NCBI GenBank assembly: GCA_040881665.1
Contig: JBBECT010000004.1
Coordinates: forward strand, 506,303 to 570,302
Source: Actinomycetota bacterium
GTDB taxonomy: Bacteria > Actinomycetota > UBA4738 > HRBIN12
DNA: 64,000 bases
Direction: 5' to 3'
Within the stretch, counting starts at the first letter, position 1; every line of letters starts with the position of its first letter. The position numbers were made by a program, and so were the translations under genes. This document shows, piece after piece, positions 11,263 to 40,860 of this stretch. Under the pieces are notes generated by a model. That model ran no database searches. It saw nothing but the letters and a program-made list of their open reading frames with translations, and was not told the DNA's origin.

Positions 11263-12288
11263 CTACGGCCCGCTGCCGGTCGGCAACGGGAGCCGCTTGC
11301 GGCCCGTGATCGATCGGCCGACGTCGGGCGCGATGCGCGTCGGAGGCAACACGTCGGTCGAGTAGATGTTGGCCTGACCGGCGTTCCCGCACCCGAACCG
11401 GCTGAAGTACACGGGTTCGGGGAACGATGAACCCGGCACCGTGGAGATGTCGTTCACGTCCTTCCCGTCGTCGAGGACGTGGACGAGTTGCCGGCTCTCG
11501 GAGCCCAAGGGCACGGCGACGATCTGTGCGTTCGCACCGCACGCGTTGCCCGAGCGCACAAGGTAGCTGACTCCGTTCTCGTTCGGAACGCCGAAGTACT
11601 GCTGCTTCTGCGGCTCGTTGGTCACGCGTGTCGTCGTCGCGGTATCGATCTGATGCACGAACACCTGGCAGACGGGAGAGCACTTCGTCCAGGTCGCGTA
11701 GTTCCCGGAGATCTGTCCCGGGTACAGGCACCGGCAGCGGTTCTTCGCCGTCGCCAGGACGCGCTTGGTCTGGTTCGGGTCGCCGAGATCGGCCAGCACG
11801 ACCTTCCACGGGGCGTCGGGCGCATCGAAGCGGTTCTCCCCGTAGAGGAGGTGGTCCCCGTCGATCGACGGACGCCACTGCCACAGTGAGGTGTTCACGT
11901 CGGAGCGGCCGAGCGGAACCCCGGCGCCCGCCGAGGCGTCGTAGAACCGCAGATCCGACTGCCCCTTCTTCACCTGCTGCCAGACGAGCCGATCGGTCCC
12001 CGACGCGAACGCGCCGGTGTACCCACGGGTCTTCTCCGGGTTCACCTTGATCCTCGGACCGCCATTGACCTGGAGGAACGCGTTGAACCGATCGGGCGTG
12101 CTCTTGCCGTCCGCGGTCCATGCGATCAGCGAGTTCATGCCCGCGTCTGCGGCGGCGGGGAAGTCCTCCCAGACATCGGGGTTCACCTTCACCGGATCGA
12201 CGACGGCAGGGCCGGCGGGTGCCTGGGTCACGGCCACCAGGCCGATCGCGAGCGCGACGGCCGAGGTGATCACGATCCGGGCGTGCAT
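11263..12288 (-). CDS. Secreted beta-propeller-like protein
   Basis: About 341 residues with a signal peptide (hydrophobic segment about residues 4-20 of the chosen start, ending near QAPAGPA). The rest is rich in short beta repeats such as RLVWQQVKKGQSDLRFYD and HLLYGENRFD, resembling TolB/WD40-like propeller blades, with several Cys that could form disulfides. Function unknown. I chose ATG 12288 because GGAGG lies ten bases upstream; the frame is open 63 bases farther, but without a signal-like start. It precedes nothing obvious and is probably a single gene. Confidence 0.65.
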   Translation of the reverse strand: MHARIVITSAVALAIGLVAVTQAPAGPAVVDPVKVNPDVWEDFPAAADAGMNSLIAWTADGKSTPDRFNAFLQVNGGPRIKVNPEKTRGYTGAFASGTDRLVWQQVKKGQSDLRFYDASAGAGVPLGRSDVNTSLWQWRPSIDGDHLLYGENRFDAPDAPWKVVLADLGDPNQTKRVLATAKNRCRCLYPGQISGNYATWTKCSPVCQVFVHQIDTATTTRVTNEPQKQQYFGVPNENGVSYLVRSGNACGANAQIVAVPLGSESRQLVHVLDDGKDVNDISTVPGSSFPEPVYFSRFGCGNAGQANIYSTDVLPPTRIAPDVGRSITGRKRLPLPTGSGP

Positions 12289-12391
12289 TCGCAAGGGGCC
12301 TCCGAACGGGTGGCGGGCTCGACAGACCGGAACATGCTGCCCTACGAGCAACAGGGCGACAACCGTGTCCTCCCGCGCGAGCGCTAGCCGC

Positions 12392-30006: not shown

Positions 30007-30038
30007 GTAGCGAACGTCTGTTCGACTTTGTCAGGTTA

Positions 30039-30082
30039 TGCCATACTTGATCCGCCACGGTCAAGGAGGGTCAAGTATGGCA
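30039..30082 (+). repeat. 12-bp inverted repeat enclosing the ribosome binding site of the next gene
   Basis: TGCCATACTTGA (30039-30050) and TCAAGTATGGCA (30071-30082) are perfect inverted repeats separated by 20 bases that contain AAGGAGGG (30063-30070). The right arm covers the ATG at 30077. A GGTCAAG/GGTCAAG direct repeat overlaps the right half. It may act as an operator bound by the gene's own winged-helix product, or as an mRNA hairpin that hides the start codon. Confidence 0.8.
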
Positions 30083-31723
30083 ACAATGGGATTTCCACCC
30101 TTCCATCCCAGGTCAGGGGATATCCCGTTCCTTCTCAGCGAGCAGGAGTTCGCGCAGGCGTTCCCTCGGGAAAGCGATCTTGTGGAGTGGAAGGAGGGGG
30201 CGGGGCAGGACGCGATACAGCGTGCCGTAGTCGCCTTCTCCAATTCGAACGGTGGGGTGATCCTCATCGGTGTGGACGACAGCGGTCGGGTTGTGGGCCG
30301 TGACCCTGATGGCGCCTCCCGAGTGGTCCATCAGGCCGTAGCGACGTGCTACGAGCCCGGGACGTACTGGATCCATGTGCTGCTAGTCGGGGATAAACGA
30401 GTCACGGTTGTTGCCGTTGCCCAGCGCACACAAGGGTTCGCTCAAACATCGAAGGGCGAGCTGCTAGTTCGTCGGGGCGCCAGCAATCGGGCTCTTCTCG
30501 GTGGAGAACTCCAGCGGTTCATATCGTCGCGAGCCTTCGCTCGTTTCGACCTGACCGAAACAACGACCCCGTGGTCGGATGCCAGTCAGCCGCTCATCCG
30601 TCAGATTGCGGAATCCTATGGGTGGGTCAACATGGACCCCCGACGATTCATCGATGAAGAGCTGGCAGCTGATGGGCCCGATGGACCGGTCCTCACCGTT
30701 GCGGGTGCGTTAACCCTCCTACCGGATCCATCCGCAGTGATTAGCAAGTCATTCGTCGAGGTGCTCCGGTTTCCCAACGAGGGATCTGAGTACGATCGCC
30801 GCCTCGAGATCCGCGGCTCGGTCCAAGAGGTAGTGGTCAGTACAACGGATTTCCTAGTCGAAGAGCTCGGCATCGATGTGGTGGTCACCGGTGTTCGAAG
30901 GCTGGAGTTGCCTCGACTCCCGACCGTGGTCATCCGCGAAGCGCTTGCGAACGCGGTGGCGCACCGAAGCTACGAAGACGTTGGTCGCCCCATCCAGGTC
31001 GAGATCTTTCCGAGTCGGTTGATCGTCACGTCCCCAGGGGGACTGGTTGAACCGGTCACCGAGGAGAACATCCGCGACGCCCACTCCTCGAGGAACGCCA
31101 AGCTGCTTCAGGTCTTGCGGCGCCTTCGGTTGGCTGAGGAACTCGGTCGTGGTGTCGACGTGATTCAGGACACGATGGCTGAAGCCTTGCTGGATCCGCC
31201 GAGTTTCCGAGACAGGGGGCACTCTGTGGTCGTCGAGCTCCCTATCAGGGGTGCCGTGACGCCTCAGGAGAAGGCATGGGTGCGTGAGGTTGAGCGCTCA
31301 GGTGAGATCCGACCGAGCGACCGCCTGCTCCTGGTCCAGGCGGCGAGGGGCGAGGTCCTGACGAACAAGCGCGTTCGTGAGGTTCTAGCGGTGGATAGGG
31401 GAGAGGCAGTGGCAGCTCTCCATCGCCTTCGGGATGCAGGTTTCTTGCGCCAGTCCGGAACTCGCGGTGGAACGAGCTACGTTCTCGGAGAGAGTGTAGC
31501 TTCCCCGCCGTGGTTCCGAATGACGCCCACGGATCTTCGCGAACTCGTCGTCGATCTGGCGGCGTCCGGTCCCATCACCAACGCCGACGTTCGCCAGGCA
31601 ACAGGACTCGATCGGGTCGCAGCCCTACGGGTTCTTGATGCTCTCGTGCGTGAAGGTTTGCTGCGTCGCCATGGCGAACGTCGCACCACACGATACGAAT
31701 TGGCAAGCCCTCCCACGACCTAG
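30077..31723 (+). CDS. AlbA_2 (Schlafen-like) / HATPase_c_4 protein with C-terminal winged helices
   Basis: 548 residues. Order: AlbA_2 domain (about 20-130; SDLVEWKEG, AFSNSNGGVILIGVDDSGRVVG), a middle region, a RecG-like HATPase-type domain (about 265-390; LPTVVIREALANAVAHRSY, IVTSPGGLVEPVTEENI, RRLRLAEELGRGVDVI), then two winged-helix-like stretches (about 410-470 and 490-545). Family members are DNA-linked regulators or defence-associated ATP-binding proteins of unclear role. GC content and codon use are visibly lower than in neighbours, suggesting transfer. ATG 30077 is chosen because AAGGAGGG lies seven bases upstream; an upstream ATG at 30038 lies inside the inverted repeat. Confidence 0.78.
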   Translation: MATMGFPPFHPRSGDIPFLLSEQEFAQAFPRESDLVEWKEGAGQDAIQRAVVAFSNSNGGVILIGVDDSGRVVGRDPDGASRVVHQAVATCYEPGTYWIHVLLVGDKRVTVVAVAQRTQGFAQTSKGELLVRRGASNRALLGGELQRFISSRAFARFDLTETTTPWSDASQPLIRQIAESYGWVNMDPRRFIDEELAADGPDGPVLTVAGALTLLPDPSAVISKSFVEVLRFPNEGSEYDRRLEIRGSVQEVVVSTTDFLVEELGIDVVVTGVRRLELPRLPTVVIREALANAVAHRSYEDVGRPIQVEIFPSRLIVTSPGGLVEPVTEENIRDAHSSRNAKLLQVLRRLRLAEELGRGVDVIQDTMAEALLDPPSFRDRGHSVVVELPIRGAVTPQEKAWVREVERSGEIRPSDRLLLVQAARGEVLTNKRVREVLAVDRGEAVAALHRLRDAGFLRQSGTRGGTSYVLGESVASPPWFRMTPTDLRELVVDLAASGPITNADVRQATGLDRVAALRVLDALVREGLLRRHGERRTTRYELASPPTT

Positions 31724-34128: not shown

Positions 34129-34157
34129 TTGTCTACCAACCGGTAGATGTGCATAAT
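34129..34157 (+). promoter_or_regulatory. Promoter with embedded palindrome (probable TetR operator)
   Basis: -35 TTGTCT (34129-34134), 17 bases, -10 CATAAT (34152-34157). TCTACC-AACC-GGTAGA (34132-34147) is a perfect 6-bp inverted repeat overlapping the -35 and filling the spacer, where a bound repressor would block polymerase. Predicted transcription start is at or next to ATG 34165. The TetR gene at the operon end is the likely binder. Confidence 0.7.
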
Positions 34158-34164
34158 CTGCCGC

Positions 34165-36489
34165 ATGGTAGACACCCCGGCTCGCCCGGATGACGCCTCG
34201 CCCACCCCTGAGGGGGAGCCCGGCCGCTCCCTCCCGGCACTGCTTGCGGGCAAGAGGACGCTGGTCACGGGCGTGACCGGGTTCCTCGGTCAGGCAGTGG
34301 CCGAGCGGCTGCTCCACGACTTCCCCGACACGCCGCTCGTCGTCCTGATCCGCCCCCAGCACGGCGTCTCCGGTCGCAGCCGGCTCGAGAAGGTGATGAA
34401 ACGGCCATTGTTCGACCGGCTCCGGGAACGGGAAGGTGGTGACGACGGGATCTCGAGGCTGCTCGACCGCCGCGTGCTGGTCGTGGAGGGTGACTTCACG
34501 CGCGAGGCTCCCTCCTTCCCGAACGATCTCGACCTCGTGATCCACTGCGCGGCCGCGGTGTCGTTCGACCCACCGATCGACGAGGGGTTCCAGACGAACC
34601 TGCTCGGGACCCAGCGCTTCTACGGGTCGATCGTCGCCAGCGGTTCGACGCCCCACCTCGTCCACGTGTCGACGGCGTACGTCGCGGGGACTCAGAAGGG
34701 CGTGATCTTCGAGCGCACGCTCGACCACAAGGTCGACTGGCGCGCCGAAGCGGACTTCGCGCTGCAGGCCCGCCGCGACGTCGAGGCGGCGAGCCGCCGG
34801 CCCGAGCAGCTCGACTCCTTCATGGACGAGGCGCGCAAGGAGCACTCGCGCGCGGGCCCGCAGACCGTCGCGACCGACGCCGAGCAACGACGGAAGGACT
34901 GGGCGACCAAGCGCCTGATCCACTACGGCCGCGCTCGCGCGCAGACGCTCGGCTGGCCGGACAACTACACGTTCACCAAGGCGATGGGTGAGCGAGCCAC
35001 CGAGGAGCTCGCCGCGGAGCACGATCTGCCGCTGTCGATCGTGCGTCCATCGATCATCGAGAGCGCCTACACCCACCCGTTCCCCGGGTGGATCGAGGGC
35101 TTCAAGATGGCCGAGCCGATCATCCTGGCCTACGGGCAAGGACAGATCACCGAGTTCCCCGGGATCCCCGAGGGGATCGTCGATATCATCCCGGCCGACC
35201 TCGTGGTGAACACGATCCTCGCGGTCGCGGCGAACCCGCCGCCGCCGAACGAGCCCGGCTACTACCACGCGAGCTCGGGTGACCGGAACCCGTTGATGTA
35301 CTACGAGCTGTACGAATGGGTTCGCGAGTACTTCGAGGCCCACCCGCTGCCCGAACGAGGACGCGGGTACGTGAAGCCCCCGACCTGGACCTTTCCCGGC
35401 AACCTCAAGGTCGAGCGGATGCTCCGCACCGGGGAGCGACTCGTCGACATCGCCGACACCGCCGTGCGCCGGCTCCCGAAGTCCAAGCGCACGCGCGAGT
35501 TGATCGCGCGCGTCGATCGGGACAAGTCTCGGGTGGAGTTCGTCCGGCGCTACGCGGACCTGTACGGCACCTACACCGAGGCCGAGGTGATCTACACCGA
35601 CACGAACACGCTGCGACTGTTCGACTCACTCACCGACCAGGACAAGGCGCGGTTCCCGTTCGACTCGGCGATCGTGGACTGGAAGTACTACCTGATCGAC
35701 GTGCACTGTCCGAGCGTGACCTCGTCGCTGCGCAAGCTCTCGTCGAAGAAGCGCACGCCGTCGGTACAGATCCGTGAACGCGAGGAACCGACCCTGGCGG
35801 TGTTCGACATGGAGGGAACGATCATCTCCTCCAACGTCGTCGAGTCCTACGTCTGGACGAAGATGGCCGACCTCGAGTGGATGGACTGGCCGAAGGAGCT
35901 CGTGGACGTGTTCGGACGCGTTCCCGGCTACCTGATGGCCGATCGTCGCGACCGGGGGGAGTTCCTCCGCACGTTCTTCCGGCGGTACGAGGGCGCCTCG
36001 GTCGAAGGCGTGCAGGAGATCATCGACGACCACGTCGGCGAGTTCATGTTGCAGAAGGCGAGTCCGGCGGCGATCCGGAGGATCCGCGAGCATCGCGCGG
36101 CAGGACATCGCACGTTGCTGCTCACCGCCGCGGCCGAGATCTTCATCCAGCCGCTCGCCCCGCTGTTCGACGTGATGGTGGGCGCCGAGCTCGCCGAGCG
36201 AGACGGGCGCTACACCGGCTTCATGGCCACGCCGCCCCTGGTCGGAGAGGCTCGCGCAGCCTGGCTGCGCCGGTATGCGGCGGATCACGGCGTCGATCTG
36301 AAGCAGTGCTACGGGTACGCGGACAGCCACTCCGACCTGCCGCTGCTGCGCGCCGTCGGGAACCCGGTCGCGGTTTCGCCGGACTCCGCGCTGCTGCGGA
36401 TCGCGCGCAAGCGCCGCTGGCCGGTCGAGGAGTGGGCGATGAGCACGCCGATGCCGCGCGTGCGGTTCCCGAAGCCGGCGATCCGATGA
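34165..36489 (+). CDS. Fatty acyl-CoA reductase fused to a HAD-IB phosphatase domain
   Basis: 774 residues. The N-terminal NAD(P)-binding SDR domain has TGVTGFLG at 35-42, VSTAYVAG, and the catalytic pair Tyr268/Lys272 (YTFTK), followed by a FAR/Sterile-like region to about 530. The C-terminal HAD-IB domain begins AVFDMEGTIISSN with nucleophile Asp548. The acid/base position, normally Asp, is Glu550. YADSHSDLPLL closes the HAD motifs. It probably reduces acyl-CoA or another acyl thioester to aldehyde or alcohol; the phosphatase-like half has unknown substrate. No Shine-Dalgarno and a -10 box seven bases upstream suggest leaderless transcription. First gene of the operon. Confidence 0.85.
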   Translation: MVDTPARPDDASPTPEGEPGRSLPALLAGKRTLVTGVTGFLGQAVAERLLHDFPDTPLVVLIRPQHGVSGRSRLEKVMKRPLFDRLREREGGDDGISRLLDRRVLVVEGDFTREAPSFPNDLDLVIHCAAAVSFDPPIDEGFQTNLLGTQRFYGSIVASGSTPHLVHVSTAYVAGTQKGVIFERTLDHKVDWRAEADFALQARRDVEAASRRPEQLDSFMDEARKEHSRAGPQTVATDAEQRRKDWATKRLIHYGRARAQTLGWPDNYTFTKAMGERATEELAAEHDLPLSIVRPSIIESAYTHPFPGWIEGFKMAEPIILAYGQGQITEFPGIPEGIVDIIPADLVVNTILAVAANPPPPNEPGYYHASSGDRNPLMYYELYEWVREYFEAHPLPERGRGYVKPPTWTFPGNLKVERMLRTGERLVDIADTAVRRLPKSKRTRELIARVDRDKSRVEFVRRYADLYGTYTEAEVIYTDTNTLRLFDSLTDQDKARFPFDSAIVDWKYYLIDVHCPSVTSSLRKLSSKKRTPSVQIREREEPTLAVFDMEGTIISSNVVESYVWTKMADLEWMDWPKELVDVFGRVPGYLMADRRDRGEFLRTFFRRYEGASVEGVQEIIDDHVGEFMLQKASPAAIRRIREHRAAGHRTLLLTAAAEIFIQPLAPLFDVMVGAELAERDGRYTGFMATPPLVGEARAAWLRRYAADHGVDLKQCYGYADSHSDLPLLRAVGNPVAVSPDSALLRIARKRRWPVEEWAMSTPMPRVRFPKPAIR

Positions 36490-36508
36490 GCCGGGGAGGA
36501 GGCTAGCG

Positions 36509-37711
36509 ATGGCCCTGCAGCTCGAGTTGTATCGCAGCGCCCCGCGCTACCTCACCGAGCGCGCGCTGTCCGGCCGGGTGCCCGGCGTCGTGACGAGCCC
36601 CGTCGCGCCCTTGCGGCTCGCGACCGCGAAGGATCCGCGGGTGCCCGGTCCCGGCTGGGTCGGGGTGAAACCGCTGCTGTCGGGGATCTGCGGTTCGGAC
36701 CTCGCGACCGTGGCCGGCAAGTCCTCGTTCTACTTCTCCCCGCTCGTCTCGCTCCCGTTCGTCCTCGGACACGAGGTCGTCGGGGAGCTCGCCGACGACT
36801 GCGACGAGCTGGCCTCCGGCACCCGGGTCGTGATCGAACCGGTGCTCTCCTGCCTGGCGCGCGGCGAGGACCCGCCCTGCCGCAACTGCGCCGCGGGCAA
36901 CCGTGGGCGCTGCGATCGCGTGACGGTCGGTCACGTCTCGGCCGGGCTGCAGACCGGCTACTGCAAGGACACCGGCGGGGGGTGGAGCCGTCAGTTCGTC
37001 GCGCACCGTTCCCAGCTGCACGTGGTTCCCGACGGCCTGGCCGACGATGCGGCGGTGCTGATCGAACCCCTCGCGTGCGCGATCCACACGGCGATGCGCG
37101 CCCGGGTCGAGCCGAACGACGAGGTGCTCGTCGTGGGCGCCGGGACGGTCGGCGCCCTCGTGACGCTCGCCCTGCGCAGCCTGACCTCCGCCGGCCGGAT
37201 CACGGTGGTGGCGAAGCACCCCAAGCAGCGTGAGCTCGCCGAGCGGATGGGAGCGGACGAGGTGATCGAGCCGAAGCAGGCCACGAACGCCGTCCGCCGG
37301 TCGTCCCACACGATGAAGCTCTCACCGGAACGAGGACCGGACTTCCTGCTCGGGGGGGTCGACGTGGCGATCGAGTGCGCCGGCTCCCGCGGGGGCCTCG
37401 ATACCGCCCTGCGGACCACCAGAGCGGGTGGCCGCGTCGTGCTCTCGGCGATCCCCGCGAGCGGTGCCGACCTCACGCCGGTGTGGTTCCGCGAGCTCGA
37501 GGTGGCCGGCGCCTACACCGGGGGGGTCGAGCGTGTGGACGGAGAGTCGCGCGGCACCTTCGAGCTCGCCGTCGAGCTCGCCCAGCGATCCCCGCTCGAG
37601 GGCATCGTCGGTGCCCGGTACCCGCTCCGGCGCTGGCGTGAGGCGATCGACCACGCCCTCGGAGCCGGCAAGCTCGGAACGTCGAAGGTCGTCTTCGACC
37701 CCAACGCCTAG
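36509..37711 (+). CDS. Zinc-dependent alcohol dehydrogenase
   Basis: 400-residue MDR-family dehydrogenase. Catalytic zinc ligands are visible in GICGSD and GHEVVGE, and a structural zinc is likely in CLARGEDPPCRNCAAGNRGRC. The Rossmann motif is VVGAGTVGALV. It likely interconverts an alcohol and an aldehyde, possibly the product of the acyl reductase encoded just before it. GGGAGGAGG precedes the ATG. Gaps on either side are 19 and 15 bases, so it is part of the same operon. Confidence 0.88.
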   Translation: MALQLELYRSAPRYLTERALSGRVPGVVTSPVAPLRLATAKDPRVPGPGWVGVKPLLSGICGSDLATVAGKSSFYFSPLVSLPFVLGHEVVGELADDCDELASGTRVVIEPVLSCLARGEDPPCRNCAAGNRGRCDRVTVGHVSAGLQTGYCKDTGGGWSRQFVAHRSQLHVVPDGLADDAAVLIEPLACAIHTAMRARVEPNDEVLVVGAGTVGALVTLALRSLTSAGRITVVAKHPKQRELAERMGADEVIEPKQATNAVRRSSHTMKLSPERGPDFLLGGVDVAIECAGSRGGLDTALRTTRAGGRVVLSAIPASGADLTPVWFRELEVAGAYTGGVERVDGESRGTFELAVELAQRSPLEGIVGARYPLRRWREAIDHALGAGKLGTSKVVFDPNA

Positions 37712-37726
37712 GAGAGGGGAACAGCC

Positions 37727-39313
37727 GTGCCCAGACCAGGTTTCGTCTTGGAGGTGGACGAGCGCACACCGCCGCTGCTCGTCAACGAGGGCGAGGGATT
37801 CCGGCTACAGAAGTTCCCGCTGGGCTCACGCGTCGTGTACTCGCCCGATCCGCTCCCGGGGATCCGCGACGTGAACGGAGCGATCCGCCAGGCGCTGCTG
37901 CACCCGCACGACTCCGAACCGCTCCCCGACCTGCTGAAGCCGGGGATGAAGCTCACGATCGCCTTCGACGACATCTCGCTGCCGTTGCCGCAGATGGTGC
38001 AGCCCGACATCCGTCAGCGGATCATCGAGGCCGTGGTCGAGCTCGCCGCGCGCAAGGGCGTGACCGACCTGCAGCTGATCGTCGCGAATGCCCTGCACCG
38101 GAGGATGACCGCGGACGAGATCAAGCGCGCCGTGGGCGAGCGGGTGTTCCGCAGCTTCTGGCCGAACGACCTCTACAACTTCGACGCGGAGGACGCCGAG
38201 GCCCTGGAGTTCATCGGCACAACCGATCAGGGCGAGGAGGTCGAGATCTCCAAGCGGGCGGCCACGTCCGATCTGGTCGTCTACGTCAACATCAACCTCG
38301 TGGCGATGGACGGCGGTGACAAGTCGGTCCCCGTCGGTCTCGCCGGGTACCGGAGCCTGCGGCATCACCACAACGTGCACACGATGCTGCACTCGAACTC
38401 CTACATGGACCCGCGTCCGGAGCACTCGGCGATCCACGCATCGACCAAGCGGATGGGTGATGTGATCCGTGACGCCGGCATCAAGATCTTCAACATCGAG
38501 ACCACGCTGAATTCCGAGACGTTCCCGAAGGAGCTCGACTTCCTGAACAAGCGCGAGTGGGAGTGGTCGCTGAAGGACCAAGCTCTGATGCTCGCGGCGC
38601 GCAAGGCGAACGAGCTGGCCCCGCCACGGATCCGCAGGGAGGTGTTCCGCCGGATCGAGGCGCCGTACAAGATCACGGGCGTGAACGCGGGGGCGACCGG
38701 TCCGGTCCACGAGCGGACGCTGGCCAAGCTCCACGAGCAGCAGCTCGTCGAGGTCCAGGGACAGAGCGACGTCGTCGTGTTCGGACTGCCCTACGTCTGT
38801 CCGTACAACGTGAACTCCATCATGAACCCGATCCTCGTTCACTGCCTCGGGCTCGGGTACCTGTTCAACATGTATCGCAACAAGCCGCTCGTTCGGCCGG
38901 GTGGCGCGGTGATCATGTTCCACCCGGTGCCGTGGGAGTTCCACCAGATCCACCACCCGAGCTACATCGACTTCTTCGAGGAGGTCCTGTCGGAGACGAC
39001 CGACCCGGCAACGATCGAATCGAAGTTCGAGCAGCGGTACGCGGAGGATCCGTGGTACATCCATCTGTACCGGACGAGCCACGCGTACCACGGCGTTCAC
39101 CCGTTCTACATGTGGTACTGGGGCGCACACGGTCGCGACTACGCGGGCGACGTGATCGTCGTCGGCGGCGACCCACGCACGTGTGGGCGGATGGGGTACC
39201 GCGTGGCGGGGAGCTTCCGCGACGCGCTCGAGATGGCCTCGGACACCGTCGGACGCTCGCCCTCGATCACCTACTTCCACGCCCCGCCGCTCGCGATCGC
39301 GGACGTGCGATGA
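37727..39313 (+). CDS. LarA/DUF2088-family protein (nickel-pincer racemase relative)
   Basis: 528 residues. The N-terminal DUF2088 domain (about 30-250) matches LarA, where the nickel pincer cofactor is tethered to a Lys. The equivalent Lys199 (GGDKSVPVG), His124 (ANALHRRMT) and a His cluster at 213-218 (HHHNVH, His215 at the LarA His200 spacing) are present. The position of the second LarA catalytic His reads Ile189 (YVNINLV). The C-terminal half is longer than in lactate racemase and rich in His, Tyr and Trp. It is probably not a lactate racemase; the reaction is unknown. GTG start with GGAGAGGGGA upstream. Confidence 0.75.
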   Translation: MPRPGFVLEVDERTPPLLVNEGEGFRLQKFPLGSRVVYSPDPLPGIRDVNGAIRQALLHPHDSEPLPDLLKPGMKLTIAFDDISLPLPQMVQPDIRQRIIEAVVELAARKGVTDLQLIVANALHRRMTADEIKRAVGERVFRSFWPNDLYNFDAEDAEALEFIGTTDQGEEVEISKRAATSDLVVYVNINLVAMDGGDKSVPVGLAGYRSLRHHHNVHTMLHSNSYMDPRPEHSAIHASTKRMGDVIRDAGIKIFNIETTLNSETFPKELDFLNKREWEWSLKDQALMLAARKANELAPPRIRREVFRRIEAPYKITGVNAGATGPVHERTLAKLHEQQLVEVQGQSDVVVFGLPYVCPYNVNSIMNPILVHCLGLGYLFNMYRNKPLVRPGGAVIMFHPVPWEFHQIHHPSYIDFFEEVLSETTDPATIESKFEQRYAEDPWYIHLYRTSHAYHGVHPFYMWYWGAHGRDYAGDVIVVGGDPRTCGRMGYRVAGSFRDALEMASDTVGRSPSITYFHAPPLAIADVR

Positions 39314-39326
39314 GGGGGGATCGCTG

Positions 39327-40232
39327 ATGCCGTCGTTCTCCGATGAGCTGCGCGACCTCGCGAAGGGGTTCCGCTGGGGTCGCCGTTCCCTGACCCCCGC
39401 CACCGCCGAGGAGCACACCCCCGAGAAACAGGACTGGACCTTTCCCACCGCCTGGGCGCGCACCGAGACCGGTGTCGACGTGCGCGAGGCGATCCTCGAC
39501 TACTTGATGCGTCCGCTCGTGTGGTCCCAGACTTCACCCGAGGTCTACGGCACCGACAACCTCGACGGGCTCGAAGGACCTGTGCTCTTCGTGTCGAACC
39601 ACTCGAGCCACCTCGATGCGACGCTGATCATGACGACGCTGCCCTCCCGCTGGAAACGGCGGACGGCCGTCGGCGCCGCGAAGGACTACTTCTTCGACGT
39701 GTGGTGGCGACAGGCCTTCACCGCGCTCGTGTACGGCGGGTTCCCGATCGACCGCACGGGAGGCGGGAAGGGAACGGCGACCGCGAGCGATCTGGTCGCC
39801 GATGGCTGGAGCATCGTCGTGTTCCCCGAGGGCGCGCGCAGTCCCGACGGGTGGATGCAGCGGTTCCGGCACGGGACGGCGCGGATGGCGATCGAGTTCG
39901 ATGTGCCGATCGTGCCGATCGGGATCCGCGGCGCGTACCAGGCGATGCCGAAGGGGCGCTTCTGGCCCAAGCCCGGCCGCCCACCGATCACGGTTCGGTA
40001 CGGCCGCCCGATCTTCCCCGAGGAGGGCCAGACCCACCAGGAGCTGTCCCGGCGGATGGTGCAGGCGGTGACGCTGCTCCACGACGAGGACCGGACCAGC
40101 TGGTGGGATGCCCTCCAGCGCGCGGAGCGGGGCGAGACCCCGAGCATGACGGGTCCGCAGGGGCCGAAGTGGCTGCGGAACTGGGAGAGCTCCCGACCGC
40201 TCCCCAAGCGGAAGGGAACGACATGGCGCTGA
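39327..40232 (+). CDS. Lysophospholipid acyltransferase-type protein (PlsC family)
   Basis: 301-residue glycerolipid acyltransferase. The acyl-transfer motif HX4D is NHSSHLD (His92, Asp97); the phosphate/acceptor-binding motif is VVFPEGARSPDG; and PIVPIGIRG is the third block. It probably transfers an acyl chain to a lyso-lipid at the membrane face. The ATG follows GAGGGGGGA by six bases and starts 13 bases after the LarA-like gene. It connects the operon to membrane lipid assembly. Confidence 0.88.
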   Translation: MPSFSDELRDLAKGFRWGRRSLTPATAEEHTPEKQDWTFPTAWARTETGVDVREAILDYLMRPLVWSQTSPEVYGTDNLDGLEGPVLFVSNHSSHLDATLIMTTLPSRWKRRTAVGAAKDYFFDVWWRQAFTALVYGGFPIDRTGGGKGTATASDLVADGWSIVVFPEGARSPDGWMQRFRHGTARMAIEFDVPIVPIGIRGAYQAMPKGRFWPKPGRPPITVRYGRPIFPEEGQTHQELSRRMVQAVTLLHDEDRTSWWDALQRAERGETPSMTGPQGPKWLRNWESSRPLPKRKGTTWR

Positions 40233-40245
40233 CCGCGACGGCCGC

Positions 40246-40860
40246 ATGAGCCGGACCGGTGGGGAGAAGCGCCGTCGCTCGCTCGTCGAGGAGGCGATCC
40301 GCTGTTTCGGCCGCGACGGCTACAAGGCCACCAGCCTCGACACGGTCGCGAAGGCGGTCGGGGTCCGCAAGCAGACGCTCCTGTACTACTTCCCCACGAA
40401 AGATGCGTTGCTCGAGGCGTGCCTGACGAACGCGGGCGCCACCGTCGGAGCGGCGATCACCGCCGCCCTCGAGGACCAGGACTCGGCCGAGTCGAAGGCG
40501 GAGGCCGTCGTCCACGCGGTCTTCGAGCTCGCCGACGAGTTCCCGGAGTTCCCGATGTTCGTGCGCGAGACCGGGCGGCTGGGCCCGGACGCGTTCGAGC
40601 GCTTCTCCGCCGTGCTCGATCCGCTGCGCGAGCGCGCCGTCATCTCGCTCCAAGCGGGGATGGACGAGGGCTCGATCCGCAAGCAGGATCCGGCGATGCT
40701 GCTGTTCACCCTCTACACCGCGGTGATCGGCTCCCTCACCGAGGCGAGCGTGCTGAACGCCGTGGTCGGTCCCGACAAGAGCCGAGCATCGCTGCGCCGC
40801 CGTGAGAAGGAGGTGATCTCGTTCGTCCGCGCCGCGCTGGCGCCTCCCCCCGAGGACTAG
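40246..40860 (+). CDS. TetR/AcrR-family transcriptional regulator
   Basis: 204 residues. The N-terminal helix-turn-helix (about 10-55; LVEEAIRCFGRDGYKATSLDTVAKAVGVRKQTLLYYFPTKDALLEA) is followed by a helical ligand-binding domain. It is the last gene of the acyl reductase operon and the probable binder of the palindrome at 34132-34147, giving autoregulation with ligand release; an acyl-CoA-like ligand is a guess. Its TAG shares the tetranucleotide CTAG with the stop of the convergent small membrane gene. Confidence 0.9.
   Translation: MSRTGGEKRRRSLVEEAIRCFGRDGYKATSLDTVAKAVGVRKQTLLYYFPTKDALLEACLTNAGATVGAAITAALEDQDSAESKAEAVVHAVFELADEFPEFPMFVRETGRLGPDAFERFSAVLDPLRERAVISLQAGMDEGSIRKQDPAMLLFTLYTAVIGSLTEASVLNAVVGPDKSRASLRRREKEVISFVRAALAPPPED

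Follow-up and report, generated by a model that had tools for sequence, protein, structure and literature searches.

What does a five-gene cluster that joins a fatty acyl-CoA reductase (FAR) to a homologue of LarA produce, and which part does the LarA homologue play? The question is raised by a 64,000-nucleotide stretch from an Actinomycetota bacterium (lineage UBA4738; HRBIN12; GenBank assembly GCA_040881665.1, contig JBBECT010000004.1, positions 506,303 to 570,302), here called the window. In it, genes for a FAR-HAD fusion, a zinc-dependent alcohol dehydrogenase (Zn-ADH), a LarA homologue, a PlsC-type acyltransferase and a TetR-family regulator follow one another. A sequence-only reading of this DNA had proposed a single transcription unit for a dedicated lipid pathway under TetR control. 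As judged by sequence comparison, the five co-directional genes are a genuine, widely conserved operon. We give an even chance to the reading that this TetR-repressed operon serves the synthesis of a specialized fatty-alcohol-derived glycerolipid, in which a nickel-pincer nucleotide (NPN) enzyme would carry out a hidden-redox step other than racemization.

The five tightly packed genes that had been claimed were all found on one strand, with intergenic gaps of 19, 15, 13 and 13 bp, and the domain identities assigned to their proteins were matched by Pfam and NCBIfam models. A scan for relatives of the LarA protein, with one genome per species, returned at least 569 proteins; the best 80, which were named, include members from Actinomadura, Kribbella, Nocardioides, Frankia, Actinoallomurus, Nitriliruptorales and Acidimicrobiales. 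Gene order was conserved well beyond the source genome, contrary to the outcome that the sequence-only reading had named as refuting it: among 84 loci with enough flanking sequence, drawn from across Actinomycetota, the order FAR-HAD>ADH>LarA>PlsC was retained in 80. When 297 Actinomycetota genomes were sampled, 75 carried both FAR-HAD and the LarA family, two and three carried only one or the other, and 217 carried neither; the LarA-family cut-off was exceeded in 72 of the 297 species (∼1/4). The pairwise divergence of the four enzymes was correlated (r 0.84–0.90). These data support a single transcription unit and a dedicated pathway.

TetR was adjacent (downstream or divergent) at 26 of the 84 loci, and larB, larC or larE was found nearby at 21. 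Neighborhood clustering revealed no other broadly conserved partner beyond larB/C/E, and several of its clusters were antisense artefacts of the simple gene caller. The divergent MFS gene, which had been suggested as an accessory, was matched at just 1 of 84 loci and was rejected, as was a MazG gene considered as an operon partner (3 of 84 loci).

A promoter with a palindrome between its −35 and −10 hexamers had been claimed at the first start, and both elements were found there. The palindrome (O1) overlaps the end of the first hexamer by three bases, and the palindrome pattern has two matches at the promoter vs. 0.03 expected; loci L038 and L149 likewise have two operator copies. A single copy of its core, CTACC-N4-GGTAG, is present in the entire 2.46 Mb genome. 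All 8 loci with a downstream TetR and all 21 with a divergent one (29/29 linked) have the motif YTACC-N4-GGTA near the FAR-HAD start, vs. 1 of 76 loci without a recognized TetR; L041 and L078 are one locus entered twice, a few others possibly too, and the independent counts are slightly lower. Because of this co-occurrence, the palindrome at 34132–34147 is very probably the TetR operator, and sequence conservation favors TetR control through it, as had been proposed. The TetR orthologues are only 33–72% identical to the window TetR, yet the motif is kept, which makes for a strong operator footprint. The listed ATG at 34147 falls inside the promoter, and translation of FAR-HAD probably begins instead at the ATG at 34165. 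The latter lies near the expected transcription start, suggesting that the message is probably leaderless.

The lipid character that had been ascribed to the operon is supported by the FAR1-type reductase and by an acyltransferase of the glycerol-3-phosphate (G3P)/lysophosphatidic acid type. The FAR-HAD protein matched PF07993 (1.2e-46) and PF12710 (1e-30), and its FAR part aligned with the solved fatty acyl-CoA reductase 7eoz (residues 27–527, 1e-56) across both the NAD-binding and the C-terminal parts. The C-terminal Sterile domain (PF03015) scored 34.1 bits, below the cut-off of 35.4, and the 7eoz alignment covers this region. The YxxxK motif of FAR1-type reductases is retained, with Y274 and K278 invariant in a 106-sequence alignment. 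Unlike those reductases, the FAR here is fused to a HAD-IB phosphatase, and it is encoded in a bacterial operon with LarA. The HAD catalytic residues (D554, D/E556, D726 and D730) are intact and the zinc ligands of Zn-ADH are conserved, in each case across ∼100 relatives. The solved enzymes nearest to Zn-ADH are L-idonate, butanediol, threonine and sorbitol dehydrogenases.

The PlsC protein matches the solved 1-acylglycerol-3-phosphate acyltransferase 5kym, and its HX4D and PEGxR motifs are intact across ∼100 relatives. Two PlsC paralogues are encoded elsewhere in the source genome, ruling out the operon gene as its sole PlsC. Operons of family f14 have the order PlsY>FAR-HAD>ADH>(gap)>LarA, with PlsY (PF02660, 167 bits) immediately upstream of FAR-HAD and PlsC not nearby. 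PlsY is a G3P acyltransferase, and its replacement of PlsC in this family suggests that the acyltransferase step is G3P acylation. In one member of this family (L046, genome G011), a protoglobin gene (11667–12323; PF11563, 133 bits) adjoins ADH within the cluster region. The pairing of a FAR1-type reductase with an acyltransferase would also fit a wax ester or storage lipid operon, in which FAR alcohols are esterified and LarA has a side role. WS/DGAT was unmatched in the source genome, a result to be read with the control genomes, which gave no match either. The LarA gene is linked as tightly as the FAR gene, and we consider this explanation very improbable.

The LarA homologue scored 891.9 bits against the LarAH14/15/16 model NF052592 (cut-off 740, residues 6–528). 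An AlphaFold (AF2) model built from a 45-sequence alignment (pLDDT 95) had 9q3k as its best Foldseek match (E 8e-32, probability 1.00, TMt 0.84), which predicts a LarA fold. Across the 45 family sequences D82, H124, K199, H214 and H215 are invariant. In the alignment, D82 corresponds to the ribose-binding Asp72 of LarA, K199 to the NPN-linked Lys184, H214/H215 to the Ni-ligand His200, and H124 to the first catalytic His, His108. The second catalytic His (His174 of LarA) is absent: the region YVNINLVAMDGGDK is without His, and Asn190 is nearest. Arg75 of LarA, which binds the carboxylate and the cofactor phosphate, is replaced by L, I or C in the 45 sequences, Leu/Ile being typical; DITRPSP of Mar2 aligns here with DISLPLP. 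The closest solved folds are the single-His LarA enzymes of Streptococcus plurextorum and Blautia wexlerae (9q3k, 9q2u and 9q3j), which likewise have one catalytic His and retain the Ni-ligand His and the NPN Lys. In contrast to the Leu/Ile and lipid context found here, those enzymes have Lys at the carboxylate-Arg site and a glycolysis context (PMC12611868).

These residues bear on a second alternative, that the LarA homologue isomerizes a 2-hydroxy acid (e.g., glycerate or a 2-hydroxy fatty acid) destined for the lipid head group or chain; reduction of a 2-hydroxyacyl substrate would yield a 1,2-diol. All characterized LarA homologues use 2-hydroxy acids, and NCBIfam names the LarAH14/15/16 family a hydroxyacid isomerase. 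However, the protein has lost one of the two catalytic His residues and has Leu/Ile in place of the Arg that binds carboxylate, and Frankia LarAH14 was inactive in seven assays of 2-hydroxy acid reactions (PMC7583248). We therefore judge this alternative rather unlikely. Frankia members of the family have the same gene cluster as the window (L084, L108 and L123). The family is an orphan, and the text of the papers reports no lipid setting for it, their gene-context Table S1 aside. A literature search for a link of DUF2088, or of lactate racemase in Frankia, to an acyltransferase found nothing. A second LarA branch, at 33–40% identity and without FAR/ADH/PlsC context, was seen at L062, L064, L065 and L073, and the NPN residues are common to the three members aligned (L062, L064 and L065).

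The retained cofactor-binding residues make the LarA homologue likely to be an NPN enzyme. In the source genome larB and larC lie side by side on contig C4, and larE lies elsewhere on C4. There is a single LarA-like match, which leaves this protein as the one visible client of the cofactor machinery. LarC was present in 67 of the 77 genomes with the LarA family vs. 126 of the 220 without it. Two models failed to detect LarC in ten LarA-family genomes; LarA proteins from six larC-less genomes were checked, and every NPN residue was kept.

The gene identities, the operon, its conservation, the operator, the cofactor-binding residues and the loss of catalytic ones are read from the sequence; for the order of steps, the substrates, the TetR ligand, the product and the NPN step, we infer the following. 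The FAR domain would reduce long-chain acyl-CoA to the aldehyde or alcohol, PlsC (PlsY in one family) would acylate G3P or an equivalent, the polyol-type Zn-dehydrogenase would interconvert a secondary alcohol and a ketone on the glycerol backbone, and the HAD domain would remove phosphate. With its NPN cofactor, the LarA homologue would act on the lipid or head group by hidden redox (hydride transfer), and would not racemize a free 2-hydroxy acid. TetR, whose ligand is probably an acyl-CoA or lipid intermediate, would bind the tandem YTACC-N4-GGTA sites and block the promoter until the ligand arrives.

A fatty-alcohol-derived glycerolipid is favored because this tool set resembles that of the Myxococcus xanthus elb and AGPS ether-lipid operons, and AGPS was not seen here. 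M. xanthus requires its elb operon for ether lipids, and this operon encodes FAR1-like, HAD, AGPAT-like and NAD-dependent reductase functions (PMC9131029). The elb and AGPS operons share with the window a FAR1-like domain, a HAD phosphatase, an AGPAT/GNPAT-like acyltransferase and an NAD-dependent reductase. They differ in that LarA is not described there, that the dehydrogenase here is a Zn-MDR and not an SDR enzyme, and that the ACS/ACP domains and AGPS are absent here.

This likeness also favors alkyl-ether lipid synthesis, a sharper version of our proposal that does not exclude it. FAR would provide a fatty alcohol, the acyltransferase step acyl-G3P or acyl-dihydroxyacetone phosphate, and the dehydrogenase would act on the C2 ketone, with the LarA/NPN enzyme in the role of AGPS, exchanging acyl for alkyl by transient oxidation. 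In other systems the acyl-for-alkyl exchange is done by AGPS. The sole PF02913 match in the source genome (488 aa) lies beside an open reading frame for a GlcE-like FAD oxidase and reads as the GlcD of a GlcD/GlcE-like pair, and NPN catalysis is itself hidden redox. However, we know of no LarA family member that forms C–O bonds, the literature search yielded no ether lipid report for the carrier genera, and the ACS and ACP domains of ElbD have no counterpart, a Pfam scan of the five operon proteins having detected neither. Alkyl-ether synthesis is a tentative possibility, and alkyl ether leads among the specific products considered. We put little weight on the wider claim that a LarA-family nickel-pincer enzyme acts in bacterial membrane lipid synthesis through a reaction beyond 2-hydroxy acid isomerization, such as a transient oxidation of glycerol C2 that would permit acyl-for-alkyl exchange and make the enzyme an AGPS analogue.

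Several observations weigh against the fatty-alcohol-derived glycerolipid pathway with an NPN step. Seven of the 77 cluster-bearing genomes (G074, G096, G150, G171, G204, G264 and G295) were found without larC or a full-scoring larE, and two of them are nearly complete (G264 at 98%, G295 at 96%). These genomes may scavenge the cofactor, obtain it by another route or have gaps in their assemblies, and because of them NPN dependence is only likely. LarA in family f14 is frequently kilobases off from the rest of the cluster; in G066 of this family FAR-HAD and LarA are split between contigs, with both kept (G066:C1:277635 and G066:C4:138433). No second PlsY was found in the readable 53% (1.6/3.0 Mb) of G011, so the operonic PlsY of family f14 may be the housekeeping copy too. 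Finally, the literature searched gave no biochemical or lipid data for cluster members.

The features of the operon are collected in Table 1. Farther out in the window, beyond the MFS, MazG and GNAT genes, a Schlafen/AlbA_2 protein with a RecG-C-like HATPase part is encoded at 30038–31723.

Table 1. Coordinates of the operon genes and of the predicted control elements, as positions in the window.
Feature	Position	Strand	Description
FAR-HAD fusion	34165..36489 (open reading frame listed from 34147)	+	FAR1-type fatty acyl-CoA reductase + HAD-IB phosphatase
Zn-ADH	36509..37711	+	Zn-dependent medium-chain dehydrogenase, polyol/threonine/sorbitol dehydrogenase branch; PF08240 + PF00107
LarA homologue	37727..39313	+	LarAH14/15/16 member with a single catalytic His; predicted to use NPN
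PlsC-type acyltransferase	39327..40232	+	PF01553 8e-23; third such gene of the genome
TetR-family regulator	40246..40860	+	PF00440 6e-14
Operon promoter TTGTCT-17-CATAAT	34129..34157	+	Sole sigma-70-like match between 33900 and 41300, against a chance expectation of 0.4
TetR operator O1 TCTACC-AACC-GGTAGA	34132..34147		Perfect 6-bp arms; predicted
Second operator copy TCTGCC-GCAT-GGTAGA	34157..34172		Imperfect (one mismatch); overlies the start codon

To judge from the sequence, the operon product appears to be a glycerol lipid derived from a fatty alcohol, and an orphan enzyme built for the rare nickel-pincer cofactor appears to be among the proteins encoded. One orphan branch of the nickel-pincer superfamily thereby gains a concrete physiological setting, that of a lipid operon, with a testable operator and named cultured strains, and the failure of the 2-hydroxy acid assays is offered a reason. 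If the LarA homologue does act as an AGPS analogue, bacteria would have one more way to make ether lipids. The carriers, which include Kribbella, Nocardioides, Actinomadura and Frankia, make up about a quarter of the sampled Actinomycetota species and nearly always have FAR-HAD with LarA; with such wide carriage, soil and water actinobacteria may have in common a lipid or lipid modification so far undescribed.

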